Below, piece after piece: positions 1 through 28,946 of a stretch of DNA of 64,000 bases. The DNA is from Balneolaceae bacterium. GTDB lineage: Bacteria; Bacteroidota; Rhodothermia; Balneolales; Balneolaceae. The position numbers were made by a program, and so were the translations under genes. How positions within the stretch are numbered: the first letter of the stretch is position 1; every line of letters begins with the position of its first letter. The DNA lies in the NCBI GenBank assembly GCA_034521495.1, contig JAXHMK010000016.1:62001-126000 (forward strand), given 5' to 3'. The notes under the pieces were generated by a model, which saw only the letters and a program-made list of their open reading frames with translations, was not told the origin of the DNA and ran no database searches.

Positions 1-688
1 AACTATCGTGAATTCCCGGACCAATTTTGACACCATTTTTCTCAACAATTTCTGTGACAGGCTGAGGATTAGGAAGCAAAGATTGAACTTTTTCCTTTCT
101 AACCCAGGAATGATAATCCATCTCATCAAAATTCCACAAGCCTGTATGGCACCCGATGCTGGTCAGTTCTGAAATACTTTTTCCTGTGAACAAGTAACTC
201 AAATAGTTTGGCAGATGAAGAGAATTTTTGATTTTCTTGAAGATCTCCGGCTTCTGATATTTTAGCCAATAGAGTTGCAATCCGGAATTCAGCATTCCCA
301 TCGGCGGCGATGCGGTTTCCAGTGCAAACTTCTCTCTTCCGCCCACGGATTTGTAAAACTGGTCTAAAAGTTCCTCCGGAAAGTTCTTTAGATAGTTATA
401 AAGCGGAGTTACCGGCTGGCCGTTTTTGTCAATATGCACAAAACTGGCTCCATACGCTGAAAAGTTCAGAGCTTGAATTTCGTATTTCTTTTGAGCCTTC
501 TGAAATTGAAATTTAATCCAGGTTTCCAGCCTTTCCAGATCTTCACATGGATCACCATCATCATCCACCGTCTGCTCCAATTTGGTTTGATGCTTTTCAA
601 TAACAGCATAATCCTCATCAAACAGCAAGAACTTTTTATTGCTCTTACCGATGTCGAAAATTGCTGTTACGGGTTTGTGTGATGGCAT
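1..688 (-). CDS. FGGY-family sugar kinase, probably L-rhamnulokinase (C-terminus beyond the window)
   Basis: About 229 codons are visible from an ATG at 688. The open frame runs off the left edge with no stop. The N-terminus has the FGGY/actin-fold phosphate-binding pattern (TAIFDIGKSNKKFLLFD), followed by LNFSAYGASFVHID and a SYLFTGK...ELTSIGCHTGLWNFD stretch typical of Bacteroidota FGGY kinases. The usual family length is 450-500 residues, so about half is missing here. It lies downstream of L-rhamnose isomerase and the rhamnulose-1-phosphate aldolase fusion. The inferred reaction is therefore ATP-dependent phosphorylation of L-rhamnulose in the cytoplasm, the step between those two enzymes. 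L-fuculokinase is the main alternative on sequence alone; the neighbours favour rhamnulose. Confidence 0.85.
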   Translation of the reverse strand, partial: MPSHKPVTAIFDIGKSNKKFLLFDEDYAVIEKHQTKLEQTVDDDGDPCEDLERLETWIKFQFQKAQKKYEIQALNFSAYGASFVHIDKNGQPVTPLYNYLKNFPEELLDQFYKSVGGREKFALETASPPMGMLNSGLQLYWLKYQKPEIFKKIKNSLHLPNYLSYLFTGKSISELTSIGCHTGLWNFDEMDYHSWVRKEKVQSLLPNPQPVTEIVEKNGVKIGPGIHDS

Positions 689-988: not shown

Positions 989-2274
989 CTACAACCCAGT
1001 TGCAATTGTATCTGAACCCCGTTCATTAATTAACTCCCGGCGTACATTCAATTCCCTGAATAACCCAATCGGATTCGCTGCAGCACCGGAACGAATTCTC
1101 GATTCCCGAAGCAGCGGACGAACATCTGTTTGATACGCATCTTGCAAACATTCCTGTGCGGCTACGGGATCATTGTCCTGCCTCGCTTCAGAAAGTTTCT
1201 TCCTGTCAATCAACAACGCCTGCGCATACGATTTTTTAATCGCCCCCACGGATTGAAGCAGATCTTCAAGCGGATCTTTCACATTGTGACTCGCATCGAT
1301 CATCCAGGAAATATTTTGCTCCAGATCATTCTTCCCGGTTGTTCCTTCAACCAGTTCGTTGAAAATTAAAAACAGTTGATACGGTTTGATGGAGCCGGTT
1401 GTCAAATCATCATCGCCGTACTTTGAATCATTAAAATGGAAGCCGCCTAACTTTCCTTCCATCAATAAAATGGATACGATTTGTTCAATGTTGGTATTAG
1501 GCAGATGGTGACCTAAATCAACTAATGTTTTAGCTTTTTCGCCCAAGCTTGTTAGCCAGTAAAAACGAGGTCCCCCAATCCGGAATGACCATGGAATAGA
1601 AATTGGGCTCGTAGGGTTTGTACTCGATTAACACTTTCCAATCATCAGGCAGATTCATTGTAAATCTCTTCGAGCGACTGATGAGTTCGTTCCAGAGCTT
1701 TGCTAAAATTCTGCTGTCCCGGAAACACAGATCCATCCGCCAGCCAAACCGTCAGCGCTTTTGAGCCAAGCGCTTCACCATATTTGATCACTTCAATGTT
1801 ATGATCAATCGCCTGCTTTCGGACTTTTGGATCCGTATGAGAAAGAGAACCAAACTTATACGAATATTCCTGGTCTTTCTGATCCTGGAACGTATTGGAG
1901 TTGACCGCATCGAACGTAATATCCAGATCATCGGCTAACTCTTTAATTGCAGCCGAATCATTCGGAATATCCCAGGGAATGTGAAGGGAAATTGCTCCGC
2001 TGGATCGATTGAGTGCATGAATCAATCCAACATCTTCAATCTTTTCTGTGAGATTTCCCGGCTCGCCACCGATTGGAAATCGTCCGAATCGGGTCCCTCC
2101 CGCTCCTAATGCCCAGCTTGGAATTGCAATTTGAAAGGAAGCGATTTGATCGACCAATACTTCCACATCAATATTTTGAGATGTTAGTTGATCTGACAGA
2201 AAGGAAAACGAATCTTCATGTTTCCTGGATTGCTTCTGATTGTGATCGAGTATTTGTTCCTTAGTAATTCTCAT
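989..2274 (-). pseudogene. rhaI: L-rhamnose isomerase, RhaI type, interrupted by two +1 frameshifts
   Basis: Three overlapping frames (1645-2274, 1530-1736, 989-1546) join into one protein of about 427 residues, the usual length of Pseudomonas stutzeri-type RhaI. It interconverts L-rhamnose and L-rhamnulose in the cytoplasm. The metal-site motifs are all present: the Glu in EYKPYEP, the Asp in LVDLGHH, the His in GGFHFNDSKYGDDD and the Asp in MIDASHN. SLHIPWD and FDAVNSNTF are further family motifs. The first break lies at 1653-1659, where 7 bases stand where 6 are expected (EIYN..LPDDW). The second lies in a GGG run at 1542-1544, where removing one G restores LGEKAKTLVDLGHH. With both intact motif sets, sequencing error is as likely as a true pseudogene. 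Start is the ATG at 2274. Confidence 0.88.
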
Positions 2275-2799: not shown

Positions 2800-4998
2800 T
2801 TACCTCAAAAATGCCTCTTTCAGGCCACCATCCACAGGAATGATATGGCCGGATGTATTTTCAAATTTCGAACTCAGCAATTGATAGAACGCTTCGGTCT
2901 GTTGCTCAAGCGTAATCGGTTTCTTTGTAAGGGTCCGGCTCGCATAAAATTCAGCCAGTTTATCCTTCAGAGATTCCGTGCTTTCGTCATCATCAAACTC
3001 AATTCCATATTTCGTGAGCGATGCTTTCACTCTGTCTCGCGGAAACATGCTGCTTCCTTCAACCACGGTTGCCGGAGCCACACCATTCACCCGAACATTT
3101 GGCGCGAGTGAAATTGCAAGCTCGCGCACCAGGTGATTCGCAGCCGCTTTGCTTGTATCATAGGCAAAACTTCCATCTTTGGGTACTACAGCGTTGGCAC
3201 TGGTGGCAATCACCATACTTCCTTTCAGGTTCTGGGCGTTCCAGATTTTGGATGCCTCATCCGCTACGATAAAGTTTCCTTTTACATTCACGGCAAAGCT
3301 TTTATCCCATGCTGAATCACTCACATTTCCAGCCTCATCGGGCGTTGGATAGAGACCTGCGGTTACAGCCACATTGTCTAATCCGCCATAAGCAATCACG
3401 ATATCCTGAAGTGCCTTCTGAACAGTTTTCCGGTCTGTAATATCACACTGCAATCCAATGATATCACCAGAGCCGCTTATATCTGATCCGGCCACTCCGA
3501 TTCCCATTCCGATATCATCCAAAACTTCTTTGGCTGTGGCTGTTGCCGCGTCTTCATCGAGATCGAGAGCTACAACCGTTGCTCCTTCGTCGATCAATCT
3601 CGGAACTAAATCTTTGCCGATTCCACTTCCAGATCCAATCACTGCAATAACCTGTCGTGATAATTCAGCTTCGGGCGGCATTCGCTGCAGCTTCGCTTCT
3701 TCAAGCGCCCAGTATTCAATATCGTAGGCTTCCTGCTTTGAAATTGCGGTGTATTCGGCAACGGATTCGGCTCCCCGCATCACACCGATTGCAGCCGTAT
3801 AGAATTCGGCTGTTACGCGCGATTCACTTTTGTTTTTGCCCCAGGTCACCATTCCAAGTCCCGGAATTAAAATTACGGTCGGATTCGGATCACGCATATC
3901 CGGCGAATCCTCATCACTGTGATTGTTGTAATAATCTGCATAATCATCGCGGTATTTTTCCAGGCCGGAGGAGATCTCAGATTTCAAATCTTCAAGTGAA
4001 TCATTCTGAGGATTCCAATCCACATACAGCGGCTTAATTTTCGTTCGCAAGAAGTGATCCGGACAGGATGTGCCCAACTCAGCAAGACGTGAAGCATCTT
4101 TTGAATTGATGAATTGCAGCGTTACATCATCATCCTGAATGGTTCCGATAAACTGATTTTGCTGACTGACTTGTCCCCGCAAAAACGGCAGAATTTCAGA
4201 CAAAACCGCACGCCGTTCTTCTTTTTTGAGTGATTCGAACTTTGTTCCTCCGAAAGAATCTTCTCCTTTTTCATGATCAGCCAGATATTCAGCCGCCTGG
4301 TTAATCAGCTCGAGGCTCAACTCATAGCACTCCTTATCATCATTCGCCCAGTTGATCAGTCCATGTCCTCCTAAAATAATGCCTTTGATTCCCGGATTTT
4401 CCTCAATCGTTTCCTGGAGTTTCAATCCCAGCTCAAAACCGGGACGCATCCAGTCCACCCAAACTACCTCATCACCGTAGATCTCTTTTGTCAGCTCTGG
4501 TCCATTATCTGCCGTTGCAATGGCGATTACAGGAACCGGGTGCGTATGATCCACAAATTTATACGGAATAAAACTGTGAAGTGGTGTATCGATAGAAGGT
4601 GCCCGCGGATTTAAATTAAATGTGCAATGCGGGTACATCCCCGTCATGGAATCCTCAGCCGGCGTCTTCAGCCCGGTATTATCCATGGATTGATAGACAT
4701 CCTGCAGTTTTAATAGTTTTTCCTGATAGAGAGATGCGAAGTTTGGTTTTTTAGCGGTTCGGAGATCGCCCCCTGAACCTTTCACCCAAAGCACTTCCGC
4801 TTCCTCATCTGTCAGTGGATCTGTTTCAATCAGTTTACTGGATGTATTTCCGCCGCCCGTATTGTTGATGTAGGCATCACTTCCCAACAAATTGGAGCGA
4901 TAGACAAGCCGCTCAAGGAGATCCATCTCATTGGCTTTTTGATCTTCCCATTTGCTTTCTACTGTTCTGAAATAATGTTCTGTTGTGCTTTTACTCAT
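2800..4998 (-). CDS. rhaD: Bifunctional rhamnulose-1-phosphate aldolase / L-lactaldehyde dehydrogenase
   Basis: 732 residues, the usual size for the fused enzyme called RhaE/RhaEW or RhaD-type in bacteria. Residues 1 to about 420 are a class II (zinc) aldolase domain, with NNTGGGNTSSK near the N-terminus and the metal-binding VDHTHPVPV loop. Residues from about 450 to the end are a short-chain dehydrogenase, with the nucleotide-binding glycine motif GSGSGIGKD and the catalytic Tyr-X3-Lys in YDTSK. It splits L-rhamnulose-1-phosphate into dihydroxyacetone phosphate and L-lactaldehyde. The dehydrogenase half then oxidises lactaldehyde to L-lactate. It sits between the permease and the isomerase/kinase genes in one orientation. 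The start ATG at 4998 is well placed, with no in-frame extension. Confidence in the family is high; the exact product of the dehydrogenase half is from family knowledge. Confidence 0.93.
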   Translation of the reverse strand: MSKSTTEHYFRTVESKWEDQKANEMDLLERLVYRSNLLGSDAYINNTGGGNTSSKLIETDPLTDEEAEVLWVKGSGGDLRTAKKPNFASLYQEKLLKLQDVYQSMDNTGLKTPAEDSMTGMYPHCTFNLNPRAPSIDTPLHSFIPYKFVDHTHPVPVIAIATADNGPELTKEIYGDEVVWVDWMRPGFELGLKLQETIEENPGIKGIILGGHGLINWANDDKECYELSLELINQAAEYLADHEKGEDSFGGTKFESLKKEERRAVLSEILPFLRGQVSQQNQFIGTIQDDDVTLQFINSKDASRLAELGTSCPDHFLRTKIKPLYVDWNPQNDSLEDLKSEISSGLEKYRDDYADYYNNHSDEDSPDMRDPNPTVILIPGLGMVTWGKNKSESRVTAEFYTAAIGVMRGAESVAEYTAISKQEAYDIEYWALEEAKLQRMPPEAELSRQVIAVIGSGSGIGKDLVPRLIDEGATVVALDLDEDAATATAKEVLDDIGMGIGVAGSDISGSGDIIGLQCDITDRKTVQKALQDIVIAYGGLDNVAVTAGLYPTPDEAGNVSDSAWDKSFAVNVKGNFIVADEASKIWNAQNLKGSMVIATSANAVVPKDGSFAYDTSKAAANHLVRELAISLAPNVRVNGVAPATVVEGSSMFPRDRVKASLTKYGIEFDDDESTESLKDKLAEFYASRTLTKKPITLEQQTEAFYQLLSSKFENTSGHIIPVDGGLKEAFLR

Positions 4999-5256: not shown

Positions 5257-6663
5257 TTAGACTGTTTCTAAAACATGAGATTTACTGACTTTGTTCTGAT
5301 AATATTTGCTTAATCCGAAGTACAAAATGATTGCGATAAACCAACCCGGCAGTCCCAGGAAGAAAATTTCAATTCCCATATAAAAATTAATAAACAGGCA
5401 TAAAAGCAGGGTCACAAACCAGGTCAGGCCAGCCGCCCAATTGAAATCGAGATTGGCCAGTTCGGCGATGTTGCTCTTCATCCCGATTTTGGGGAATACG
5501 ATTACATCCAGGAAAATGACAGCGCCCATCGGCATGAGGACCAATCCGTACAATGCTACAAAATCAAGTAGAAGCATCACTAATGCGGGGAAACAAGCAG
5601 CAATGGATGTAACCAAACCTGTAAAAAGTGTCACTTTCCAGCGTTTCCAATTCGGCGTTACCGATTGAAAAGCCAACCCCGCCCGGTAAATTGTAGGATT
5701 CGCCGTGGTCCATCCGGCAATCACCACACAGATGGCACCGGCCACGCCTGCACTGTTGTACGCAATAATTCCCGGAGCAATGGCACCGGCAGCTGCGGCC
5801 GTTAAAATTCCGGATGCAATCCACGCGATAAAATGACCGAAAAACATTCCGGTTCCGGATGAAAAACCCATCTTCCAATCTTTTGCATACCGGAGAATAG
5901 ACATGTCTGACATCCCGATATGCATCGCCATGTTGGCAAACCACGCAAAGAACATCACGTGCCAGAAGGTGAATTTACTCTGCCCGGATGCCGGTACACC
6001 TGTCCAGATTTTTTCATTGGCTACTGTCCAGAAATCGGATACAGAATTCACACCTAATTGAGGAAGTACGGCTAATCCTGCGGCGATAAACACCAAAATC
6101 ATCCAGGGAAATGCAATGTTGGCAAAACGCGCTACAAAATCATATCCAAGAATGGCAACCGTCGTAATCACCAATCCCACAATAAAAACCGTAACGATCC
6201 AGCTAAAACTTGTAGGCAGCCAATCACCCAGTTCCGGCATGGGAATACCGAACGGCAATCCCACAGCAGTCGCCGAAACAGCAATCATGGATCCCGCCAA
6301 AAAGCAGAACATAATGGCATTAACAATATTATAGATGGTTGATAATTTTGACCCGCATATTTTCTTGAGTTGCTCATAGAGAGTCAATTTTGTTCGAACG
6401 GCAACCGGTGCACAAAGGAAAGCCCAACTCAAAACAGCCAACACGTTTCCAACGATCAATCCCCAGATCAGATCTCCTGCCGCAACGCCGTGAGCCACAA
6501 AAAGCGGACCAATCACAAATTCCGTTCCCGCCGTATGCTCCCCGGCGTACATTCCCAAAAACCCTTTCCAGCCCTTGAGTTTCTTTTCAGGGACTGGTTC
6601 GCGTTCGTACTCGTCAATCGTGTCTAAGCGTGCATCTAATTTTTTAAAAAAATTACTCATCAA
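5257..6663 (-). CDS. NCS1/cytosine-permease-like transporter, candidate L-rhamnose importer
   Basis: 468 residues with about 12 predicted transmembrane helices. The polar N-terminal 45 residues are followed by GMYAGEHTAGTEFVIGPLF, in the position of the first substrate-binding helix of the NCS1 (nucleobase-cation-symport 1) fold. Later stretches such as FFAWFANMAMHIGMSDMSILRY also fit that family. NCS1 members usually carry purines, pyrimidines, hydantoins or thiamine with Na+ or H+. Here the gene lies directly upstream of the aldolase fusion and nothing in the neighbourhood concerns nucleobases. The likely cargo is therefore L-rhamnose or a rhamnoside. That is inference from position; no RhaT or MFS-type rhamnose transporter is visible in the locus. 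Start may be the Met at 6663 or the next codon. Confidence 0.8.
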   Translation of the reverse strand: MMSNFFKKLDARLDTIDEYEREPVPEKKLKGWKGFLGMYAGEHTAGTEFVIGPLFVAHGVAAGDLIWGLIVGNVLAVLSWAFLCAPVAVRTKLTLYEQLKKICGSKLSTIYNIVNAIMFCFLAGSMIAVSATAVGLPFGIPMPELGDWLPTSFSWIVTVFIVGLVITTVAILGYDFVARFANIAFPWMILVFIAAGLAVLPQLGVNSVSDFWTVANEKIWTGVPASGQSKFTFWHVMFFAWFANMAMHIGMSDMSILRYAKDWKMGFSSGTGMFFGHFIAWIASGILTAAAAGAIAPGIIAYNSAGVAGAICVVIAGWTTANPTIYRAGLAFQSVTPNWKRWKVTLFTGLVTSIAACFPALVMLLLDFVALYGLVLMPMGAVIFLDVIVFPKIGMKSNIAELANLDFNWAAGLTWFVTLLLCLFINFYMGIEIFFLGLPGWFIAIILYFGLSKYYQNKVSKSHVLETV

Positions 6664-6820
6664 TTCTTTTAATATTAATCAACCACTTAATAAAAACTGG
6701 CCTGCCCCTAATCAGTCATGTAAAAACAAAACTCTAAGGGGTTTCTCTTTTAGAGAGATTGCCACTCCAATAATCTACTTTAATATTGCCTAAATTTTTT
6801 ACCATAGCTGTTTATCGATC

Positions 6821-7408
6821 TTACAAACGGAAAAACCTATCTCTTGGCACAGACCGTTGTTTCGCCCTCTCCCCTTCGGATGCCGGAGTTCCGCTTTCCA
6901 GGACGTCTTTTTCAGCTCCCCCAATCCAGGTGGCTCCGTCCCAAGCTGATAAATCCGGGTTTGAATTCATTAATCCGGTTTCAAACCATGAGGAATTAGA
7001 GACCGGATTTCCATCCTGATCCCAAACGATTACTTCCCACTTATACCGGGTGGTAGGTTTAATTGCTTGACCGGCGTATTCAATGTGAACCGAAATATCA
7101 CTTTCTACACGTCCTGTATCCCAAACCTCATCTCCATCAGAATCGGTTACCACGATTTGATAGGCAGTTTGAAAGTAACCATGACCGCCGTCCGGTGCAC
7201 TCATCTGCCAGCTAAAACGCGGATGTTCAACATCAATACCCAGTGGTGTATCCGTGTATTCTGTTTGAAGCCCGGTGAGGGTTGTTTGTGAGCTTTGATT
7301 CTGCTGGATTGGGTTTCCAAATGCAATACTGACGGCTGCAAAACTAAAAACCATCATCATTAAAATTGACACCAGATAAAACGTTCGGCAACCTACATGA
7401 ACTTTCAT
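6821..7408 (-). pseudogene. Truncated N-terminal part of a secreted GH78 alpha-L-rhamnosidase
   Basis: About 195 residues from ATG 7408 (an upstream in-frame start at 7450 would break the signal peptide). It opens with a hydrophobic signal sequence (residues about 7-30). It then has the N-terminal beta-sandwich of GH78 enzymes: TEYTDTPLGIDVEHPRFSW, YQIVVTDSD, EVWDTGRVESDISVHIEY, RYKWEVIVWDQDGNP and SSWFETGLM. These match the start of the full-length enzymes at 11221 and 25943 nearly segment for segment. It stops after WIGGAEKD and an unrelated 25-residue tail, where about 700-900 more residues including the catalytic domain would be expected. No remainder is found before the permease gene, so this is a deletion remnant. 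It may still serve as the leader of the rhamnose operon transcript. Confidence 0.8.
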
Positions 7409-7497
7409 ATTCTCGAGATTTGATGTTGCTGTGACAAAATACTGTCCCATTTTTTATAGCGCCGTATATACTTTCAACTCTAAATGTAAAATCCTAA

Positions 7498-7517
7498 TCA
7501 TGAACATATGTTCATGA
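7498..7517. promoter_or_regulatory. Candidate operator, perfect 20-bp palindrome upstream of the rhamnose operon
   Basis: TCATGAACATATGTTCATGA is self-complementary over all 20 bases. It lies about 90 bp upstream of the GH78 stub that heads the catabolic operon. A 20-bp near copy lies at 14618-14637 in front of the SorC-family regulator. Shared, symmetrical and correctly placed, it is the best candidate binding site for that regulator. This is inferred, not shown. Confidence 0.6.
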
Positions 7518-7619
7518 ATGAATTTTTGTTCCTATAATATACAGTTCAACTGCTAAAGCTCAAATCTTTTTAAAAATCTATCTCGATTGTTTAAACGTAA
7601 AGATCCAACCCAACTTAGA

Positions 7620-10600
7620 TTATTGAGCCGGGTTAAACTGAATATTTGAGAGAATAAACGTTCCGGCGGCCCCATTCTCTCGTTGACTGACGATATAGAG
7701 ATCCTGAGTCTCATCACCCTGGATTGAGGAGGATAAATTGAATGTCAGGTTATAACCTAAAAATCCTTGTGGGGTTTGAAATTCTCCACCCGGTTCATAG
7801 ATAGCTTCACCTATACGTTCTCCGTCAGGTGAATTTAATCGTAATTCAAAGCTGATATCTCCTGCTAATGGTTCCTGTAATCCGGCAATAATGGATACAG
7901 CTCCGATATCAGTCAGATCAATATCATTGATACTGAATGATCCCCTGTCCTCTGGTACCATCATCAAAAAGTTGCCTCCAAATGTCATAGTTGTGTACTC
8001 CTGTAGATTTGAAGCCTGCTCGAACGACATCGTACTGTTTCTGAGATATACACTGGTACTGCCTGTTAATGGCTTCACATTAGAACCACCTTGATCTGTA
8101 TAACTCGCAGACAAAATCAGCAACCCATTTGGTGTGGCTTGCTTGCCAAGAGTGGGCTCAATAGTCCCTTCAGCCGGCAGTGATTGATTTTCAGCCTGCT
8201 CATCGTTTAAAGCCTGAATCCACTCTACAATCATCTCCGCATCTTCTTCACTCAGGTTTACATGTCCCGGCATCACGGTTTCACCCCAAACGCCTGAACC
8301 GCCGTTTATGATTTTATTGACGAGATGTGAAGTTACATCAGAGGAATCTTCGTAAAAATCAGCGACCGCAGTATACGACGGGCCAATCGATTCCGAATCA
8401 ATACCGTGGCATGCCTGGCAATTCAGGTTTTCAATCATGGTCCGGGCGGTATTTACATCAGCCATCACCTGGTGACCCTGATCAGCCTGAACCATGTCGC
8501 TCCCCTCAATATAATCGGCCGAAACATAGAGGTTAGACAGATCTTCTGAGGCCTCCGGATCATCCGGATCGTTAACACTGACTGAATAAGAAACAGGTGT
8601 ATCAGGGAAGTAGAATGTGCTGTTTCCTTCAATTTCTATATCAACTAAAGGAGCAGCATTCCCGGCATATACGGAAACAGGTTGACCGACACCTGAAAGT
8701 CCGTGTGGATCACGCACTTCTACAGATATGCTATAATCGCCAACCTCATTATATGTTGCCTCTGCTTGAGGCTCGCTTGTTTCTGCGGTCTCTCCATTTC
8801 CAAAATTCCATACATAGGTTAATTCTGTGTCTTCAGGATCGGCTGCATCAGCTGAGACATTTACGGTGAGAGGCAATGTACCTGAACTCTTATCCACAAT
8901 TATATCGCGGACAACCGGCGGCCGGTTTCCGGCATTAAAATCTATTCTCGACAGGCCTGCATCGGGATTTTTGGTGAACCATCCGCTGCCGTATTCAAGC
9001 AGGTAGAGTCGTCCATCGGGCCCAAGCTCCATATCAATCAGTGAATTCAGTTCAGTGCCGGGCATAAACGGTTCCATTTTCGAGAAATCGCCGTTCGGCC
9101 ACATGGTTACGGCTTTTATCCAGCCGCGAACCCAATCATAAATAAATAGTTTTCCATCATAATAATCCGGCAGTCGGGTCTCTTCGGGGTACATATCCGC
9201 ATAATAAACCGGACCGGCCATCGCGTTTCGTCCGCCCGATCCCATATCTCCAAATTCGGAAGACGTACCGTACGGATACCAGATAAATGCCGGTTGAGCC
9301 GGTGGGAGTTCTTGCCTTCCGGTATTTGCTTCATAATCATTCACGGGATTTTCAGGGTCAAATGGATCTGCTGATTCGCCAGTGGCGTAATCAAACCGTA
9401 CGTACGGATAATTATCCCCGACAAACATGGGCCAGCCAAAATTCCCGGCTTCACGAGCCTGGTTGATTTCATCGTAACCTTTCGGGCCCCGGGTTTGAAG
9501 GCTGTCATTATTGGCGTCCGGACCCACTTCACCCCAATAGAGATCGTTTGTTTTTTGGTCTACAGATATTCGATATGGATTCCGGTTCCCCTGCACATAA
9601 ATTTCGGGTCGTGTTCCCTCCTGCCCTTCGGGATAAAGATTTCCTTCCGGGATTTCGTAACTGCCGTCTTCATTGACCCGAATTCGGAGAATTTTTCCGC
9701 GCAGGTCATTCGGATTTCCGGATGATCTCATCGCATTGTACTGCTCATATCCCTCTCGTTGATCAAGCGGAGCAAATCCATTGTTTACATACTGACTATT
9801 CTGTTGGTTAAACGGAGTAGAATTATCACCGGTTGAGACATACAGAAGACCGTCACTATCAAACGCAATGGAACCGCCTGTATGGCAACAGATATGCCGC
9901 TGGGAATAAAATTCGAGAACCGTGGTTTCCGATTCCATGTCCAGCTTTCCACCGTCAAACACAAATCTTGAAAGGCGATTGACAGAAGTATCAGCGGGAC
10001 TGTAAAACACAAATACATGATTGTTTTCCTCAAAATTCGGATCGGCCTGGATTCCCATCAGGCCTTCTTCAGCATTCACACCTTCGGCATCGCTTTGATG
10101 ATATACATCCAGGTACCCGGCCCTGCTAACTGTTGAATCTTCATTACTGAAAAACAGAATTTCACCGCGGCGTTGGGCAATCAAAACATCCAGGTTAGGC
10201 AGAACGGTCATCTCGGTCGGCTCATAAAATTCACCCTGAACCAGTTGAGTTTTGGTAAATCGGTTTTCATCCGGAACGCGTTCCGTTTTGGCTTCATCGA
10301 AGTCTAATAGTTCATTCTCTCCAATAGCATATTGAATTCCCGCCTGAAGATGCTGCAAGAACAGATCTTCGGTGAACGATTCACTGGTATGGCCCAGTCC
10401 GGTGTAGAATACACGGCCACCGTCATAATTATGATACCAGGCAATCGGGTGAAATCCCATATCGGCTCCCCCCTGGTAGCTGTCTTCATCAAGCGAGAGA
10501 AGCACATTTACGTCTTCATTGAAATCCTTATAGCTGTACCATTCATCCGTTCGGTTCCACTCCTCCGGTAAAAATTCTGTAGATGAGTGAGTGGCATCTT

Positions 10601-11075
10601 CAACATGAACAGTTCCCTCCTGCACATTGGGATGCGGATCGTTAATTCCGGGATGGTCCAGGAAATATCCGCCAACCATTTTGCCATACCAACCCCAGTG
10701 ATATTCTGTATCCGCTGCGGCGTGAATTCCAACATATCCGCCGCCGGACTGGATATATCGTTCAAAATCGGCTTCCTGGTAGTGATTCAAAACATCGCCG
10801 GTAGTGCTAAGAAAAATCACTGCTGAATATTGGGCAAGAGAATCTTCCGTAAACATATTGGCATTGGTTGTGGTATCCACCTCAAAGCCATTTTCGACAC
10901 CCAGTTGCCGGATGGCCTGGATTCCCGCCGGAATGGATTGATGGTGGAAACCGGCTGTTTTACTAAAAACAAGAATTTTCGGGTCGCCCGGCCGTTCGTT
11001 TGAGCATGCCTGAAACAGAATAAGAGCAATGGCCATCAGGCAGATGGCCTGAACAGATCGTACATAAAACTTCAT
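7620..11075 (-). CDS. Lipoprotein fusion: ThuA-like domain, sugar dehydrogenase propeller, PKD domain, cytochrome c
   Basis: About 1151 residues from ATG 11075 (the frame extends to a TTG at 11084, which is less likely). A lipoprotein signal ends at Cys24 (LILFQAC). Residues about 33-250 are a ThuA-like glutamine-amidotransferase-fold domain (ILVFSKTAGFHHQSI, GGGYVGIHAAADTEYHWGWYG). Residues about 270-700 are a glucose/sorbosone dehydrogenase propeller (EEGLMGIQADPNF, GGSIAFDSDGLLYVSTGD, GNRNPYRISVD, FGWPMFVGDNYPY). A PKD domain follows (YVWNFGNG). A class I cytochrome c with a CQACH haem site near residue 883 comes next, and a C-terminal beta-sandwich ends the protein. It probably oxidises a sugar at the outer or periplasmic face and passes electrons to the haem. 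The substrate is unknown; rhamnose-derived sugars are suggested by position. Confidence 0.88.
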   Translation of the reverse strand: MKFYVRSVQAICLMAIALILFQACSNERPGDPKILVFSKTAGFHHQSIPAGIQAIRQLGVENGFEVDTTTNANMFTEDSLAQYSAVIFLSTTGDVLNHYQEADFERYIQSGGGYVGIHAAADTEYHWGWYGKMVGGYFLDHPGINDPHPNVQEGTVHVEDATHSSTEFLPEEWNRTDEWYSYKDFNEDVNVLLSLDEDSYQGGADMGFHPIAWYHNYDGGRVFYTGLGHTSESFTEDLFLQHLQAGIQYAIGENELLDFDEAKTERVPDENRFTKTQLVQGEFYEPTEMTVLPNLDVLIAQRRGEILFFSNEDSTVSRAGYLDVYHQSDAEGVNAEEGLMGIQADPNFEENNHVFVFYSPADTSVNRLSRFVFDGGKLDMESETTVLEFYSQRHICCHTGGSIAFDSDGLLYVSTGDNSTPFNQQNSQYVNNGFAPLDQREGYEQYNAMRSSGNPNDLRGKILRIRVNEDGSYEIPEGNLYPEGQEGTRPEIYVQGNRNPYRISVDQKTNDLYWGEVGPDANNDSLQTRGPKGYDEINQAREAGNFGWPMFVGDNYPYVRFDYATGESADPFDPENPVNDYEANTGRQELPPAQPAFIWYPYGTSSEFGDMGSGGRNAMAGPVYYADMYPEETRLPDYYDGKLFIYDWVRGWIKAVTMWPNGDFSKMEPFMPGTELNSLIDMELGPDGRLYLLEYGSGWFTKNPDAGLSRIDFNAGNRPPVVRDIIVDKSSGTLPLTVNVSADAADPEDTELTYVWNFGNGETAETSEPQAEATYNEVGDYSISVEVRDPHGLSGVGQPVSVYAGNAAPLVDIEIEGNSTFYFPDTPVSYSVSVNDPDDPEASEDLSNLYVSADYIEGSDMVQADQGHQVMADVNTARTMIENLNCQACHGIDSESIGPSYTAVADFYEDSSDVTSHLVNKIINGGSGVWGETVMPGHVNLSEEDAEMIVEWIQALNDEQAENQSLPAEGTIEPTLGKQATPNGLLILSASYTDQGGSNVKPLTGSTSVYLRNSTMSFEQASNLQEYTTMTFGGNFLMMVPEDRGSFSINDIDLTDIGAVSIIAGLQEPLAGDISFELRLNSPDGERIGEAIYEPGGEFQTPQGFLGYNLTFNLSSSIQGDETQDLYIVSQRENGAAGTFILSNIQFNPAQ

Positions 11076-11123
11076 GAAAATCAATTAGTTAAATAGAGAG
11101 ATTGCAAATTGGTAAATATCGGA

Positions 11124-11142
11124 GTTTGTTTCACTAACAAAC
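11124..11142. promoter_or_regulatory. Possible operator or hairpin upstream of the ThuA/dehydrogenase gene
   Basis: GTTTGTT and AACAAAC form 7-bp inverted arms around TCACT, about 50 bp upstream of the ATG. It differs from the 7498 palindrome, so any binding protein would be another one. It is short and could be chance. Confidence 0.25.
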
Positions 11143-11220
11143 AATCATGTATATACGCTATTTATCTCAATGAATAAAATGCATTTGAAATTTTTACAGA
11201 TTTTTGAATTTCAGCAAGAA

Positions 11221-14200
11221 TTACTCCGCAAGAGCACTAATTTTAGCTATTATCTCAGCAATTTTCTCTTCATCAACTTTTATGATATCGGGGAGTGATT
11301 CATTTGCTCTTTCAAGCGGATATCCCATCACCTGGCTGAGCCACGGAGAGTTCATCCATTCCGGCAGTTCGCTTATCAACAATTCCCTGGTTTCTTTGTT
11401 GGCAATAAGGATTGCGAGAGTTTCATCTGCATGGATAGAACCGGATTCTCCGACCTCAATTGTACTCAATTTGGCATCTATCTCATTTAAGGTTTGAGGC
11501 GGCAATTGATCCGGGTACGTTTCTGCCAGATCTGTAAGGGATGCACTCCCATATTGATTCCAGGCAACCCCCGTAATCATGTCGGGAATATAATTTTCCA
11601 GAACGGAGCGGGCTTGATCATTTTTCATCAACTCTTCCAACGGTGTTGATACATTCAAAGCATTGACCAGATCAGAGGCCAGCTTACCGGCGGGATATGA
11701 AAAGTGATATCTGCCGGAACCTACTTCAACCTCAACACTGTTTTCACGCTCAGATATATTCACCACTCCATCTGTTTCACGATGTAAACTCTCGCCACTT
11801 TCAGCAACCTGCTGCATACCGGCATTGGGCAGTACAATGTACGCTTTCGTATTCACCGGAATCTCAACGATAAATTCAAAATTTTCCTGGTTCAGGTTCC
11901 ACGATGATTCGATCTCTCCATACATAGTTTGCAAAACACCTTTTGCATGGGTCAGTTTTCCACCTATGACGGGTTGAATGGAAATCTCTTTATACCCGGC
12001 GGTTTTCTGATCAATCCCGGCTACCGATTTGTAGAGCCACTCGCCGATTGCACCGTAGGCATAGTGATTAAATGAGTTCATTCCCGGGTTTTGAAAAGTA
12101 CTATCGGGTTTGATACCGTCCCATCGTTCCCAAATGGTTGTGGCACCTCTCGTTACCGGGTAGAGCCACGACGGATACTCTTTGCGGAGCATTAATTCGT
12201 AGGCCTGATCTGCGTGTCCGTACTGAGTTAAAATCGGGTTGAGATGAGGTGTCCCCAGGAAACCGGTCGTCAGATGCCCTCTCTCATTAATTCTTGAAAC
12301 CAGGTATTCGGCAGCGTTCGATTCCATCTCATCAGTCAGAAGGTTGAATTGAAGAGCAAGCAGATAAGCGGTTTGTGTGTTCGACATGATCCGCCCGCTC
12401 GAGGTCATATATTCATGCTGAAAGGCTTCCTTAATATTTTCAAAAAGTGATTCATATTCCCGGGCATCTTCATCTTTTCCGAGAATCCGGGCCGACCGGG
12501 CCAGCAGATCCGTAGAATGGGCAAAAAATGCGGTTGAAATCAGAGCTTTATCCGTATAAGCACCGGGATAGTCGGAGGCTGTGCTGTTGAACGAGAGCCA
12601 GTCGCCAAATGTAAAGTTATTATTCCACAGGTAGGTCGTTTCATCCATCGCGGAACGTTTTTTCATGAAATCAACCCAGCCTTTCATGCTTTCGTACTGT
12701 GTCTCAAGAATCTGTTCATCTCCATAAGCCTGGTAAACAGCCCATGGAACAATCACACTCGCATCGCCCCAACCGGAAGCTCCGGCTGCCTGTTCTCCCA
12801 ATACATTTGGAACTACATAAGGTACGCTTCCATCCTCATTCTGATCAGCTTCCACATCACGCAACCATTTTGTGAGAAATCCTGAAGCATCCATATTTAA
12901 ACAAGAAGTTGAAGCAAACACCTGGATATCTCCGGTCCAGCCGAGGCGTTCATCCCGCTGCGGACAATCGGTTGGAATGTCCAGAAAATTGCCTTTTTGC
13001 CCCCACACAATATTATGCTGAAGCTGATTGATGAGCGGATTGGAAGTTTGAAAGTGACCGGTCGGTTCCATATCAGAATGCAGAACTACCGCTGTTAAAT
13101 CGTCCAGCGTGAGCTCGCCCGGATAGCCTTCCACTTTCACATATCGAAATCCCTGGAAGGTAAATGTTGGCTCCCAAACTTCAACCCCATCACCTTTCAT
13201 AATGTAGGTGTTGAGCTGTTCAGCAGCCCGGATATTTGCCATGTAAAAATTTCCGTCCTTGTCGAGAACTTCCGCATGTTCAAGTGCAATTTCCGTTCCG
13301 CGTGGCCCTTCAGCTTTGATTTGAACCCAGCCAACCAAATTCTGACCGAAGTCCACCACAGTGTCCCCTTCCGGAGTTTCCAAAATTTCGATGGGTTTTA
13401 AGCTCTGAATTTTTCGAACCGGCGGCGCTTCGGGAGCTACCAGGTGATCTTTTCGGTGATTAGCAATTTGTACCATCGACCAGTCGCTGTCATCATAATC
13501 TGATTGCGTCCATCCCTCTTTTTCAAGTCGGGCATCATAGGTTTCACCATTATAAATATCTGATTTCAGGATCGGTCCCGTGGACGATCTCCAGCTTTCA
13601 TCCGTTCCAATCACTTCGGTGGAACCATCCTCATACGTCACTTCAATTTGTGCGAGAACTCCCAATGTTTTGCCATAATGATTTCTGGCATCTCCCCAGG
13701 CCAGAAAACCGCGATACCAGCCATCACCTACCATTACACCAACAGCATTTTCACCGGTGTTCAACAGCTCAGTAACATCATAGGTTTGATACTGCAGCCT
13801 GTTATGATAGCTCGTCCAGCCGGGTGCAAATTCCTGGTTCCCCACTTTCTCGCCGTTGATTAGCATTTCATAAACACCATGGCTCGTTACGTATACCCGT
13901 GCTCTTGCAATATCTCCATTCAGTTCAAACTCATTTCGAAACATCGGGCTTGGAGGTGAAATTGTAGAATCCTGCTCAAAACCCGGTTCAATCCACTCAG
14001 TTTGCCAATCGCTTTCATTCAATAATCCCATCTCCCAAAACGCCGGTTCACTCCAGTCAGATTGGTTCCCGTGATTGTCCCAAATCCGGGTTCGCCAGTA
14101 ATATCTTTTACGCGATTCCAGTTCAGGCCCCTCATACGAAATATGAATGGATTGGTCAGATTCCATCTTTCCCGTATCCCAAATAATATCAGTAAAATCA

Positions 14201-14448
14201 GAACTATTGGATACCTGAACTTGATAAATTGTTTGATGCGTATTTCGCTGATCGCTCTCAATTTTCCAAGACAAACGAGGATTGGAATCGTCAATCCCGA
14301 CTGGATTTGTGAAGTATTCCACAGTTAAATCTTGAACTGCAACTCCATTCGCATTCTGGGCAAAAAGAATAGCTGAAGTGAAACTGTGCTGAAGTAAAAA
14401 TGACAGCAAAATAAAACTGACGCCAAATCGAATCACACTCATTTTCAT
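11221..14448 (-). CDS. GH78 alpha-L-rhamnosidase with C-terminal helical extension
   Basis: 1075 residues from ATG 14448; an in-frame TTG at 14493 lies in a repeat element and would spoil the signal peptide. After a signal sequence come the GH78 N-terminal sandwiches (EYFTNPVGIDDSNPRLSW, IIWDTGKMESDQSIHISY) and the carbohydrate-binding D domain. The (alpha/alpha)6 catalytic barrel has the hallmark DCPQRDERLGWTGD near residue 490 and GATTIWERWDG. It releases terminal alpha-L-rhamnose from polysaccharides or glycosides outside the cytoplasm. The last 150 or so residues exceed the normal family end. They contain two similar helical units (TPLEELMKNDQARSVLENYI and DETLAILIANKETRELLISE) of unknown role. 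It is divergent from the regulator at 14736 and probably under its control. Confidence 0.93.
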   Translation of the reverse strand: MKMSVIRFGVSFILLSFLLQHSFTSAILFAQNANGVAVQDLTVEYFTNPVGIDDSNPRLSWKIESDQRNTHQTIYQVQVSNSSDFTDIIWDTGKMESDQSIHISYEGPELESRKRYYWRTRIWDNHGNQSDWSEPAFWEMGLLNESDWQTEWIEPGFEQDSTISPPSPMFRNEFELNGDIARARVYVTSHGVYEMLINGEKVGNQEFAPGWTSYHNRLQYQTYDVTELLNTGENAVGVMVGDGWYRGFLAWGDARNHYGKTLGVLAQIEVTYEDGSTEVIGTDESWRSSTGPILKSDIYNGETYDARLEKEGWTQSDYDDSDWSMVQIANHRKDHLVAPEAPPVRKIQSLKPIEILETPEGDTVVDFGQNLVGWVQIKAEGPRGTEIALEHAEVLDKDGNFYMANIRAAEQLNTYIMKGDGVEVWEPTFTFQGFRYVKVEGYPGELTLDDLTAVVLHSDMEPTGHFQTSNPLINQLQHNIVWGQKGNFLDIPTDCPQRDERLGWTGDIQVFASTSCLNMDASGFLTKWLRDVEADQNEDGSVPYVVPNVLGEQAAGASGWGDASVIVPWAVYQAYGDEQILETQYESMKGWVDFMKKRSAMDETTYLWNNNFTFGDWLSFNSTASDYPGAYTDKALISTAFFAHSTDLLARSARILGKDEDAREYESLFENIKEAFQHEYMTSSGRIMSNTQTAYLLALQFNLLTDEMESNAAEYLVSRINERGHLTTGFLGTPHLNPILTQYGHADQAYELMLRKEYPSWLYPVTRGATTIWERWDGIKPDSTFQNPGMNSFNHYAYGAIGEWLYKSVAGIDQKTAGYKEISIQPVIGGKLTHAKGVLQTMYGEIESSWNLNQENFEFIVEIPVNTKAYIVLPNAGMQQVAESGESLHRETDGVVNISERENSVEVEVGSGRYHFSYPAGKLASDLVNALNVSTPLEELMKNDQARSVLENYIPDMITGVAWNQYGSASLTDLAETYPDQLPPQTLNEIDAKLSTIEVGESGSIHADETLAILIANKETRELLISELPEWMNSPWLSQVMGYPLERANESLPDIIKVDEEKIAEIIAKISALAE

Positions 14449-14462
14449 TATGGTAGATTTAG

Positions 14463-14589
14463 AAGGCTTTGCAAAACCGTGGTTATTCGTCAATCTGAAC
14501 TCGATTCAGATTCTCCATTCGTCTTTATAGCCAGTATCTGGAGATCCTGAATCAAGTTCAGGATGACGGTCAGAGTTTTGTAAAGCCTT
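14463..14589. repeat. 127-bp MITE-like inverted-repeat element
   Basis: Outer arms AAGGCTTTGCAAAAC (14463-14477) and GTTTTGTAAAGCCTT (14575-14589) are complementary with one mismatch. Inner arms of about 30 bp also pair (CGTCAATCTGAACTCGATTC, beginning 14489, against ATCAAGTTCAGGATGACG, ending about 14568). The whole element folds into one long hairpin. Half of the inner arm recurs alone at 32327-32353. It sits between the rhamnosidase start codon and the candidate operator and has no coding capacity. Confidence 0.65.
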
Positions 14590-14617
14590 AATTTAAATTT
14601 CTGGTTGTAGTAAAAAA

Positions 14618-14637
14618 TCATGAACATTTGTTCATAT
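14618..14637. promoter_or_regulatory. Candidate operator, second copy of the TGAACA-N-TGTTCA palindrome
   Basis: TCATGAACATTTGTTCATAT matches the perfect palindrome at 7498-7517 at 17 of 20 positions by eye. It lies in the divergent gap between the GH78 gene and the SorC-type regulator, about 100 bp upstream of the regulator ATG. It is consistent with autoregulation and control of the rhamnosidase. Confidence 0.55.
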
Positions 14638-14735
14638 TTGAATAATTGCTGATTTTAAGTTATTAAAGCATCTGCAAAAATCAACAGTATTTTTAGTATT
14701 TAGTTACATTAAAAAATTGAAATAAGCGAACTACT

Positions 14736-15749
14736 ATGCCCCGAGCAAAAGATCCAATTGATGTGCGTCTGATTAGTAAAATTAGTTCCATGTATTACGA
14801 ACAAGATTACAATCAGCAGGAGATTGCAGACCGGCTTCACCTCTCGCGCCCGAAAGTATCTCGTATGCTAAAACAGGCCCGTCAACAGGGCATCGTACAG
14901 ATTACGATTGCAACTCCCAACAGTAACTTTGTAGAGCTTGAACATGCATTGGAGGAAAAATTTGGATTAAAAGAGGTGGTCCTTGTCGAATCTGACTCGG
15001 AGATGTCTGCCGATATGATTAAGCGCCAGATCGGGGCCGCCGCCTCAAATTATCTAAATCGAACTGCCCAAAAAGACGATGTCATCGGGGTAACCTGGGG
15101 AACAACTCTGCAAGCTATGGTTGATTCAATGCAGCCCAAACCGGTTGAGAATCTTCATATCGTTCAGGCGTTAGGAGGCGTGGGGCCGCCGGAAGCGAAG
15201 GCTCATGCAACGGATATTTCCAGGCGCTTATCCCAGCTTTTTGATGCAAAACTTACGCTTCTTCCCGCTCCCGGAATTGTGGGCAGTAAACAGGCAAAAG
15301 ATGTTCTTTTGGATGATCCCCAGGTAAAAAATGCCCTCAACATGTTCAAAAATATGAACACTTTATATGTTGGCATTGGCGCACTTGAAACAAACCCGGT
15401 TCTGAATAAGAAAGGTGAAGAAATTTCGGATGAAATAGCCGATGAAATTTACAATTCAAATGCTATAGGCGATATAGCCCTTCGTTTTTATGATTCAGAT
15501 GGAAAAGAGGTTGATACAGCAGTAAAAGATCTGGTTATCGGCGTTTCTATGATGCAGATGAACAGAGATCGACACAGTAGTCTGGTTATCGGCGTCTCTC
15601 CGGAGGAGATGATGCAGATCGACACAGTTGTGGGAATTGCCGGAGGCCCGAAGAAAGCAAAAGTGATTCACGGAGCGTTGACCGGGAAAAATATCGATGT
15701 GTTAATTTCGGATAGTATGACGGCTCGCAAAGTTCTGGAAATTACCTGA
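14736..15749 (+). CDS. SorC/DeoR-family transcriptional regulator, probable rhamnose regulator
   Basis: 337 residues, the usual SorC length. Residues about 25-48 form the helix-turn-helix (YNQQEIADRLHLSRPKVSRM). The rest is the sugar-binding domain shared with sugar isomerases (DVIGVTWGTTLQAMVDSM, VQALGGVGPPEAKAHATDIS, YVGIGALE, VVGIAGGPKKAKVIHGALTG). SorC proteins bind DNA as oligomers and respond to phosphorylated sugars. Here the effector may be rhamnulose-1-phosphate or another rhamnose intermediate. It is the only regulator gene in the rhamnose region and is transcribed away from it. Matching palindromes at 7498 and 14618 are its likely sites. Residues about 265-295 carry a repeated phrase (LVIGVSMMQMNRDRH, SLVIGVSPEEMMQID), a small internal duplication. 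Confidence 0.88.
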   Translation: MPRAKDPIDVRLISKISSMYYEQDYNQQEIADRLHLSRPKVSRMLKQARQQGIVQITIATPNSNFVELEHALEEKFGLKEVVLVESDSEMSADMIKRQIGAAASNYLNRTAQKDDVIGVTWGTTLQAMVDSMQPKPVENLHIVQALGGVGPPEAKAHATDISRRLSQLFDAKLTLLPAPGIVGSKQAKDVLLDDPQVKNALNMFKNMNTLYVGIGALETNPVLNKKGEEISDEIADEIYNSNAIGDIALRFYDSDGKEVDTAVKDLVIGVSMMQMNRDRHSSLVIGVSPEEMMQIDTVVGIAGGPKKAKVIHGALTGKNIDVLISDSMTARKVLEIT

Positions 15750-16172: not shown

Positions 16173-19100
16173 TTACTTCAAAATCGTTAGCTTCTTTGTC
16201 ATGATCTGGCTTCCAGCTTGTAAGCGGTACAGATACACCCCACTCGACAAGTCACCCGCATCAAAATTCACCGTATGCCGCCCAGCCGAAACCTGAGCGT
16301 TCACAAGCGTTGCGACATTCCGCCCAAGCATATCATAAACCTCCAGCCTCACCTCACTGCTCACTGGTAACTGATAACTGATCACTGTGGTAGGATTGAA
16401 GGGATTCGGGTAGTTCTGGGCCAGGGTGAAATCATCCGGAACGGCGCCGAGTTCGGTCAGGCCGTCTACGCCGGAAGCGGTAATCAGCAGTTCGAAGCGA
16501 GGTGTTGCCCCTTCCAGATCCGCGAAGTCTCCTAAAGACTTCGCGGATCTTTCTTCGCCTGAAACCTTGGAGGTTTGATCCTCATCAATCTCAAAACGGT
16601 AGGTCGATCCCTCCCGCAGCTCAATTACCTCGCCACTTACGTTATCCCTCAGGTAGTAACTGCCATTGAACATGAGATTCCGGAAGCAACCAGTCCACTT
16701 CAAACTGTCCTGTTTCAGTGGTTTGAATATCCAGCGGTATGGATACTTTATCGTCCATTATTGATGGTAAAGCTTGTAACTCATAGGATTGATTGTCATC
16801 ATCCATCGAGAAGAAGGACAGGTACCGATTCGCCAACCCTGCTGAACTTAACATTGGAGCATCCAGTAAGTCTGAACCGGCAGATGCTTCATCATCAAAT
16901 AATATTCTTGTGCTCGCAGCAAAATGATTTTCTTTTTGATCCCAGCTACTCACATTCAACGTAATCAGGAAGTTATCTGGCGATGCTTTGCCTTTAAAGT
17001 ATCCATTTGTTGTTCCCTCTATGTAGGCATCGGCCGGAACAGCTATATCATTATTCATATCTGTAATGCGCAACCAGACCGACTGAAATGGAGCTACCGG
17101 TACAACCGCATCTTCGCCAACATTACAACTCAGATTTTCATATCCACCATTGCCCCCATTCAGTGAGGGATTCCAGAAATAAGCGTTTTCAGCAATGCTT
17201 GTCATTTCAAAATCACAGAGATCCACCGCAATTGAATATGGGTTGCCCCACAGATAGAAGCTGTCCCCGGTTTCCTGCTGATCGCTGTCATAGGCCAGCG
17301 TTTCATCGTAGAGCCCATCCAGTTCATTCCAGTTCATCGCAGAGCTGGTCAGGGTTTTAGGGAATCCATCATCCGAGCCGTTGTTGTCATCGTCTGCATA
17401 CACATAGGCGATCACCGCATCTCCGGCATCAAGTGCAGAGTTGTCGCTTGCAACCGGCTCCCATTCATATTCGTCTTTGTTGAGCCTGTAAATATTGGGA
17501 AAGTCTGCTGCAGGATTATCTGAACCGGAAAAGCCTTGTGTCCAGATTGGGCTGAAGAGATCCCCGACCGCCTCTCCATCGGAGGGTGAGCTCAAGAATC
17601 GCCAACCCGGTCCATCATAGCTTAACATGACACTGGTTGCAGCCACATCCAAGCTCATGGTATAGGAGTTTTCGCTGGGATTACCACCGGCATCTTCGAT
17701 ACTGAACTCAAAACTGTCGTACCCATAGCCGTAGATACCAGCCGGGGGTGTGTAGATCAAATCGCCATTATCAATATCGCCGACTGAGATCTCGTCATCT
17801 GTATTGACGCTATTGCCATCAACTTGAAGTTGGCCGCTGAACCCGCCGGGCAGATCTTCAATCACAATTGTGAAACTGTTATCGGTTGTACCAAAATCAG
17901 AGGGTGTAAACATGTAGGATTCGGTGTTGGCCAGCAGAATACGATTGTCAGACGCTTCCGGCCGGGTCAGGGTTGTGAAGCTGAACGGTTCGCTCCACTG
18001 CCCCGTACCGCCGGAATTTACCCCCCGAACTCTCCAATAGTACATCGTAGTAAAGTCAAGATCCGTATTGGTTTGAAATTCAGTATTCTCAATCTCGTTC
18101 TCATCAATCACCGGATCAGAATAATCGCTGTTTGGGGAGACGACCAGATCATAGCTGTCCGCACCATCGGCAGTATTCCATTCAAAGAGCGGTTTCAGTG
18201 GAACGTCCTCCGCTTCATCAGACGGATCGGTCAAAATGACGACCTCCGAGCTTTCCGGGAGAGTAGTAAAACTGAAGACCTCACTCCATGGCCCGTCCCC
18301 TGCCGCGTTGGATGCGCGAACCCTCCAGTAGTAGGTCGCAGAGTAATCCAGGTCGCTGGTTGGTTCAAAAGTGTTACTTTCCAATTCAGATTCATCAATC
18401 AGAAGAGAAGACAGATCTGAATTTTGCGAGACTTGCAGGTAGTATTCATCCGCGCCATCCAAAGACTCCCAGCTAAATTCCGGGGTCAGTACTGTATTTT
18501 CTGCATCATCGGCAGGTGTGCTCAGCACAACCTGTTCCGGAGTCGTCAACGGATCACCCTGGAATTCGTAGGCTCCCATATCCACAATATCGGGGTCAGC
18601 GGCTCCGTCAAAGATTCGGGCATTGCCGGCGAGGTCGGTCGTGATTCCCCCGGGCAATGCATCATTATTTCCTGCATTAATGGCCGGACTGGTGTTCGTC
18701 AGCGTAAAATCGCCGTTGCCCGGATCGGTAAATTGGGGGTCGGCATCGATGTTATTGCCGTCGTCGGTACCAAGGTCACCGTTCCAGCTATCGCTGCCGC
18801 CGGAGTTGGCGATCAGGCTGTGCGAGATTACAGGTGTAGACCCGCCAAGACTAACGATAGAAGCCGATGCGGAAGTTGTGCTTCCGTCTGCCTCGTTGTC
18901 CCAGATAATCACGTTGGCCATGGTGGGGTTGCTGCCGGAATTGTACATCCCGCCGCCTACCTGGTTTGCCGAATTGCCGGAGAAGGTGACGTTACTCAAG
19001 GTGGGGCTGCTGGCGGAGTTGTACATCCCGCCGGCAAATTCTGCCGAATTGCCAGAAAAAGTGGCGTTGATTAGGCTGGGACTGCTGCTGACCACGTTGG

Positions 19101-21265: not shown

Positions 21266-21377
21266 AACTGAAGTTGCTTTGGATGAAGGATGTATTCCAT
21301 GAAGGATCGTCCCTATTTCTCTTAATAAATAACTGGTATTGAAATTCAGTGGATTCATAGTGTTCAATCTTTGAAGT

Positions 21378-28753: not shown

Positions 28754-28946
28754 TGATTAAAAATGAAGTTTGATGAACCGCAATGGATGCAGAACACTGC
28801 CAATCTAAGTGTATGGAAAGTTCTCTGCCTCACTCAGCGGTCACTGAAGTTTTAATAAATTGAGATTTGAGTGAATCGCCTCTCCCACTACCTTTTAAAG
28901 AGAGACTCCAAAATCTTTTCTACTGTTTTTAGCAATCGATCAATGA

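Follow-up and report, generated by a model that had tools for sequence, protein, structure and literature searches.

The window analysed here is a stretch of 64,000 nucleotides (64 kb) from a Balneolaceae bacterium of the class Rhodothermia (contig JAXHMK010000016.1, positions 62,001 to 126,000), whose genome comprises 4,565,328 bases (4.57 Mb) in 22 contigs. It carries a set of rhamnose genes and, to their right, sorC, which encodes a regulator of the SorC/DeoR subfamily (Table 1). An earlier note on this DNA had described a 20-bp palindrome upstream of the catabolic operon with a near copy at sorC, and had taken the pair as the mark of a SorC-type rhamnose regulon. Both sites were confirmed: scanning the window placed TCATGAACATATGTTCATGA at 7498-7517 without mismatches and a copy with 3 mismatches at 14618-14637, no further match at up to 3 mismatches was present in the window, and none arose in 100 dinucleotide shuffles. 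Allowing at most 1 mismatch, ATGAACATNTGTTCAT occurs at 2 sites in the whole genome, both of them here and 7.1 kb apart. The common core of the two copies is the 14-mer TGAACAWWTGTTCA (7501-7514 and 14621-14634). Copy 1 lies upstream of a truncated GH78 frame, at a distance of 50 bp; this frame precedes the permease, rhaEW, rhaI and kinase genes. Copy 2 is upstream of two genes, sorC at 101 bp and the divergent GH78 gene at 127 bp. This GH78 gene and the ThuA/glucose-sorbosone-dehydrogenase/PKD/cytochrome gene sit between the copies, with sorC right of copy 2. Each copy is accompanied by a weaker palindrome exactly 18 bp further on, with 9/12 matches in both cases, and we predict that each pair forms an operator (O1 and O2).

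The SorC protein contains a C-terminal phosphosugar-binding domain (Pfam Sugar-bind, E 1.9e-64, residues 63-280). Its best PDB sequence match is Bacillus subtilis DeoR (8r7y, E 4e-47, residues 15-333), and its AlphaFold model, with a mean predicted local distance difference test (pLDDT) score of 82.6, gave SorC (2w48) and then DeoR (8r7y) as top fold matches. The N-terminus aligns with DeoR from residue 15 and fits the homeodomain-like helix-turn-helix of 50-60 residues, with base-contacting arginines, that marks the subfamily. R38 and R43, shared without exception by 20 sequences, were equated, through a hand-counted offset of 5, with R34 and R39 of DeoR, which make base contacts according to the part of the DeoR study considered here (PMC11229326). 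A 17-aa insertion at residues about 276-292, found in none of 19 aligned orthologs, interrupts the sugar-binding domain where model confidence is low (about 274-292); the DNA there (about 15560-15620) has the appearance of a 51-bp duplication that keeps the frame and includes a 15-nt direct repeat.

The palindrome was followed through two sets of genomes, a family set of 92 (SorC called at E<=1e-20) and a class set of 244 (E<=1e-60). Exact copies of TGAACANNTGTTCA with an A/T-only centre are present in 15 of the 16 SorC-positive family genomes and in 6 of the 76 SorC-negative ones (p 1.2e-11). The SorC-positive genome without an exact copy, G062, has a one-mismatch copy between an extracytoplasmic function (ECF) sigma-factor gene (ecf) and the permease gene. 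All 17 exact AT-centred copies in SorC-positive family genomes lie at sorC, ecf or rha genes, which disposes of the random scatter that could have undone the earlier proposal. As for the six copies in SorC-negative genomes, one lies ahead of ecf in G054 (64% complete, RhaEW-positive), four fall inside frames of at least 100 codons and one does not. Exact TGAACATNTGTTCA was absent from ten genomes lacking both SorC and RhaEW. Beyond the family, sites with 0-2 mismatches stand beside SorC in G115, G148, G150, G166, G167 and, weakly, G182, with none at this threshold beside SorC in G165. Comparison of orthologous loci thus also bore the earlier note out, the motif accompanying SorC across Balneolaceae and, often in a more degenerate form, in other families of the class.

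The second palindrome is equally constant in position. Among 27 sites from 21 genomes the weaker partner stands at exactly 18 bp, the better side averaging 8.41/12 and 15 of the 27 reaching at least 9; no other spacing between 10 and 45 gives an average above 5.7 or more than one of the 27 sites with at least 9. The count omits G167 (a near copy of G166), G182 (one 2-mismatch site), a 2-mismatch site before the G064 permease gene and the second weak site of G166, and because many of the sites are orthologous they do not amount to 27 independent events. In the part of the DeoR work considered here, tandem half-operators are the binding sites of SorC-family tetramers, and DeoR was crystallised with a half-operator of 18 bp (PMC11229326). 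Judged by its sequence, the paired arrangement at a constant 18 bp fits a SorC-family tetramer on two half-operators. SorC paralogs in G056 and G062, 38-39% identical over the matched part, carry SQATISR in the recognition helix where SorC has SRPKVSR, and adjoin an altered palindrome, TGAATATTTATTCA, at 35 and 71 bp (L070 7985-7998, L071 10311-10324). They are divergent from genes including, in G056, one for a sulfoquinovose-isomerase-like protein, and are likely SorC-type regulators of sulfoquinovose use. Protein and palindrome thus appear to have changed together, in two related genomes only.

Across species the regulator and its site are linked to rha catabolic genes. SorC occurs in 16 and RhaEW in 19 of the 92 family genomes, with both in 15 (p 9e-13); G070 has SorC without RhaEW, and G051, G054, G069 and G073 have RhaEW without SorC. 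In the class set the respective figures are 23, 54 and 21 of 244 (p 8.8e-14), RhaEW being missing from two SorC-positive genomes, G070 and G165, of which G165 has a SorC fragment. Neither rhaEW nor a site close to the SorC gene turned up in the stretches examined of two Gemmatimonadota loci encoding SorC relatives (L171, L172), and these loci were set aside.

The gene nearest the operator in most relatives is not a catabolic gene. The operator stands upstream of ecf, at 28-128 bp, in 14 of the 16 SorC-positive family genomes and also in G054 and G115, and sigma domains were confirmed in all ECF proteins scanned (G066, G052, G017, G045, G075). When the G017 protein was used as a query against 16 genomes, the 11 best matches (E<1e-43) were exactly the operator-linked genes. 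An operator-linked ortholog is absent from the window genome (best match E 1.6e-15) and from G068, Rhodohalobacter sulfatireducens (3.3e-17). G066, a close relative, has ecf, SusC, SusD and an additional rhamnosidase-like gene behind the operator, and permease and rhaEW come after them in the same orientation; in the window genome and G068 the operator sits on the GH78 gene ahead of permease-rhaEW. We read this gene order as a probable loss of the sigma block with retention of the operator. In G166, a Rhodothermia outgroup, the operator directly precedes SusC, SusD and GH78, and direct control may therefore predate the relay. In the 900 bp behind each of the 16 operator-linked ecf genes no FecR frame of full length was seen. 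Short FecR-like frames of 86-95 aa, judged by eye, follow ecf in G066, G036, G022 and G064 (L055 5745-6029, L080 14438-14695, also L061 and L062) and resemble the N-terminal anti-sigma part of FecR with the remainder missing; the one in L055 (G066) had no Pfam match. In G045 an IS1380-family transposase (L067 9073-10434) separates sorC from the operator, and RhaEW has its own copy of the promoter element described next.

Upstream of the rha operons of ECF-positive genomes we noticed a candidate promoter element of constant spacing, AGTAGA-N13-TGTCTCTT. Since the pattern was picked on some of these very sequences, fair testing rests on the genome-wide tally and on those genomes that had no part in its choice. 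Exact copies number 19 in the 92 genomes (three in G011, one in G012, two in G016, three in G017, five in G022, four in G036 and one in G045), that is, in 7 of 16 SorC-positive and 0 of 76 SorC-negative genomes (p 1.3e-6); one-mismatch matches were in many genomes a background no greater than that of the reversed control. Within 350 bp upstream of the rha operon the best match reaches at least 12/14 in 13 of 14 ECF-positive genomes, with 10/14 in G115, a scoring that omits G054 and G070, whose operon start is not on the available contigs. The same search gave 11/14 in the window, 9/14 in G068 and 8/14 each in the RhaEW-positive, SorC-negative G051, G069 and G073, and shuffled upstream regions attained 12 in 0.25% of trials. 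The relatives show ecf beside the operator together with a fixed-spacing element before the targets, a layout not found in the window genome. Further genes behind the element encode TonB receptors, GDSL esterases, an oligogalacturonate-lyase-like protein, major facilitator superfamily (MFS) transporters and other ECF factors, in a list that omits 2-mismatch matches inside reading frames. A 13/14 copy precedes another GH78 gene in the window (25943-28753), and likewise in G068 a copy lies ahead of another GH78 gene (L056 17848); in these two ECF-less genomes they may be relics or may be read by another sigma factor.

Taken together, we consider it quite probable that the adjacent SorC-family repressor has its operator in the palindrome pair and acts through a relay from SorC to ecf to the element in most Balneolaceae and directly in the window species. 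Binding, repression, inducer and the sigma factor that reads the element are all predicted from comparative sequence analysis. In Balneolaceae and elsewhere in the Rhodothermia, SorC would keep the use of rhamnose and rhamnosides repressed, a tetramer occupying a strong and a weak half-operator at a distance of 18 bp. It would repress its own gene as well as its targets, and would be released by a phosphorylated pathway intermediate, most likely L-rhamnulose-1-phosphate. In most Balneolaceae the repressed target would be ecf, whose product would then read AGTAGA-N13-TGTCTCTT promoters at the rha operon and at pectin and rhamnoside genes; in the window species, where this sigma factor is absent, the operator would head the rhamnose operon itself. 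The regulon put forward in the earlier note is thus supported by comparative genomics, with the amendment that control of the catabolic operon is probably indirect in most relatives, because the gene nearest the operator there is the ECF sigma factor. We lean, with more reserve, towards a fuller version in which SorC senses rhamnulose-1-phosphate and controls an ECF factor with no full FecR anti-sigma beside it, which would switch on an entire rhamnose/pectin locus from AGTAGA-N13-TGTCTCTT promoters, the Rhodohalobacter branch having lost the sigma layer and retained the same operator directly at the catabolic operon.

Other explanations can be set against this circuit. That the palindrome is a chance or repeat-family sequence is virtually untenable: 2-mismatch matches are dispersed across the window genome and exact copies do stray into SorC-negative genomes, mostly inside reading frames, but the distribution of the palindrome already contradicts it, given the empty shuffles, the locus-specific sites and the constant pairing. 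We regard it as very unlikely that a DNA-binding protein other than SorC uses the palindrome; SorC binding there is itself a prediction, but the palindrome co-occurs with sorC and lies at sorC itself, resembles the DeoR half-operator, and is matched by a paralog with a palindrome of its own. SorC might instead act directly on the rha operon everywhere, with ecf an incidental neighbour, as the operators of the window genome (G000), G068 and G166 could suggest together with those of G052, G056 and G062, which stand between ecf and rhaM or the permease operon. This seems improbable to us since no site with 1 mismatch or fewer was found in front of the permease operon of G011, G012, G016, G017, G022 and G036, an operon that in these six is on another contig or tens of kb distant and has the AGTAGA-N13-TGTCTCTT element instead, and since in shared intergenic regions the operator is closer to ecf than to sorC or the permease gene.

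The nature of the signal and the reader of the element leave somewhat more room. SorC could bind the palindrome and sense another phosphosugar, from pectin or other rhamnose-bearing glycans, with the rhamnose genes as one part of the regulon. The TonB receptor, esterase, lyase-like and transporter genes behind the element speak for this, and they imply a regulon wider than rhamnose, but rhaEW and its neighbours are the sole gene set kept with SorC across genomes, and we hold such a signal to be unlikely. It is possible, if doubtful, that the element serves some other sigma factor, or a different regulator that binds it, rather than the SorC-linked ECF factor: the 13/14 copy persists before a GH78 gene in the window genome, and the element also stands ahead of other ECF genes in G011 and G016, so that its reader is deduced from co-occurrence only. 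Exact copies are nevertheless confined to genomes with the SorC-linked ECF factor, and G022 has five of them yet only three ECF matches at E 1e-10. Besides these further ECF genes, several points weigh against the circuit that we favour. Sites of related genomes are not independent, and all co-occurrence p-values given here ignore relatedness. Of the 54 RhaEW-positive class genomes, 33 lack SorC at E 1e-60 and must rely on other regulators. When the operators were scanned for promoters of the Bacteroidota type (TTG / TAnnTTTG), no consistent -33/-7 boxes emerged, and the geometry of repression is accordingly deduced. Finally, the circuit may not work in this strain, because rhaI and lutC are frameshifted and SorC bears the insertion.

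Table 1. Features of the window, with positions counted from its first nucleotide
Feature	Position	Strand	Remarks
FGGY sugar kinase (start), likely rhamnulokinase	1..688	-	Runs on left of the window
rhaI, L-rhamnose isomerase, broken	989..2274	-	Pieces in three frames
rhaEW, bifunctional rhamnulose-1-phosphate aldolase / short-chain dehydrogenase	2800..4998	-	Well over the NCBIfam cut-off
Membrane protein, probable sugar permease of the operon	5257..6663	-	Role from constant position ahead of rhaEW
Degenerate element copy (11/14)	6753..6779	-	Upstream of the permease gene
Truncated GH78 frame	6821..7450	-	Intact 1288-aa gene at the same place in G068
Operator O1 (predicted)	7501..7532		Strong palindrome 7501-7514 and weak 7519-7532; heads the rhamnose operon
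ThuA / glucose-sorbosone-dehydrogenase / PKD / cytochrome c protein	7620..11084	-	Gene next after GH78
GH78 alpha-L-rhamnosidase	11221..14493	-	Divergent from sorC
Operator O2 (predicted)	14621..14652		Strong palindrome 14621-14634 and weak 14639-14652; between GH78 (minus) and sorC (plus)
sorC, SorC/DeoR-subfamily regulator, 337 aa	14736..15749	+	Pfam, PDB and fold matches
Element copy (13/14)	28898..28924	-	145 bp upstream of another GH78 gene

The rhamnose genes themselves are only partly intact. On the minus strand left of copy 1 the set continues with two GH106 rhamnosidase pieces and then lutA-, lutB- and lutC-like genes, whose orthologs in G068 carry CCG, LUD and LutB_C domains; the expected route of such a gene set leads from rhamnose through lactate to pyruvate. 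No relatives of the permease were found in Pfam, NCBIfam or PDB, and the best NCBIfam match of the FGGY kinase is rhamnulokinase, but far below the cut-off. In tblastn searches with G068 proteins sorC, rhaEW, the permease gene, lutA and lutB are uninterrupted, lutC (L016 5635-5946) falls into two frames, and the truncated GH78 frame matches only residues 21-198 of 1288; the GH106 protein of G012 likewise matches the window genome in two frames. The window genome, which has no second rhaI copy, thus does not hold the complete intact pathway found in G068. The rhaI and lutC frameshifts may reflect pathway decay or assembly indels, which look alike in these data. Elsewhere in the window, a gene at 19973-21367 (minus strand), adjoining repetitive frames at 16642-20070, encodes a predicted secreted-type protein with a ubiquitin domain (PF00240, E 5.3e-23, residues 62-129), which is unusual in bacteria.

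ECF sigma factor, FecR and SusCD loci follow a general scheme in Bacteroidota, and in several of the genomes ecf does lie beside SusC/SusD-like genes; unlike in that scheme, ecf appears from its sequence context to be repressed by an intracellular sugar-sensing SorC protein. The closest characterised relative of the regulator, DeoR of B. subtilis, has a Lys141 that binds deoxyribose-5-phosphate and that aligns, by a hand-counted offset, with Leu146 here, and it governs deoxyribonucleoside use. The two share their domain order, and the DeoR half-operator ATTGAACAAAATTTCAAT contains TTGAAC, the arm of the operator described here; as far as the part of that study considered here goes, DeoR binds tandem half-operators as a tetramer, which we would predict for the tandem palindromes of our locus, whereas its operator combines a palindrome and a direct repeat in 39 bp rather than two palindromes 18 bp apart (PMC11229326). 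CggR of B. subtilis is likewise a SorC-family protein with phosphosugar inducers, and its tandem palindromes are, in the portion of the literature used here, bound by a dimer of dimers. It differs in its DNA-binding domain and half-sites, in its control of glycolysis and in the distance between half-sites, about 21 bp by a hand count on the published operator.

The earlier note had contrasted SorC-type control with AraC-type regulators, a contrast that is too narrow. According to the portion of the 2013 survey considered here there are at least seven types of rhamnose regulator from the AraC, DeoR and LacI families (Rodionova 2013, PMC3870299). RhaS/RhaR (AraC), RhaR (DeoR) and RhaR/RhiR/RhmR (LacI) resemble our system in their local control of rhamnose genes including RhaEW; in the same portion they belong to other protein families and have no sigma factor in the circuit, and the DeoR- and AraC-type sites are direct repeats, as against tandem palindromes here (PMC3870299). 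The word SorC does not occur in the main text of the survey, the part of the source considered here (PMC3870299), and neither a SorC rhamnose regulon nor a SorC-ECF relay was found in the open-licence literature. Neither the protein family nor the pathway is new, but the pairing of SorC with rhamnose and the relay appear to be.

The finding would add a regulator family to rhamnose control, beyond the surveyed AraC, DeoR and LacI types, and offers a compact operator in Fodinibius sediminis, F. roseus, F. salsisoli, Gracilimonas mengyeensis and Rhodohalobacter sulfatireducens. It suggests that a sugar-sensing repressor can stand above an ECF sigma factor, with one lineage lacking that layer. If our hypothesis were correct, the Rhodohalobacter branch would display a visible step of circuit rewiring through the loss of a regulatory layer.

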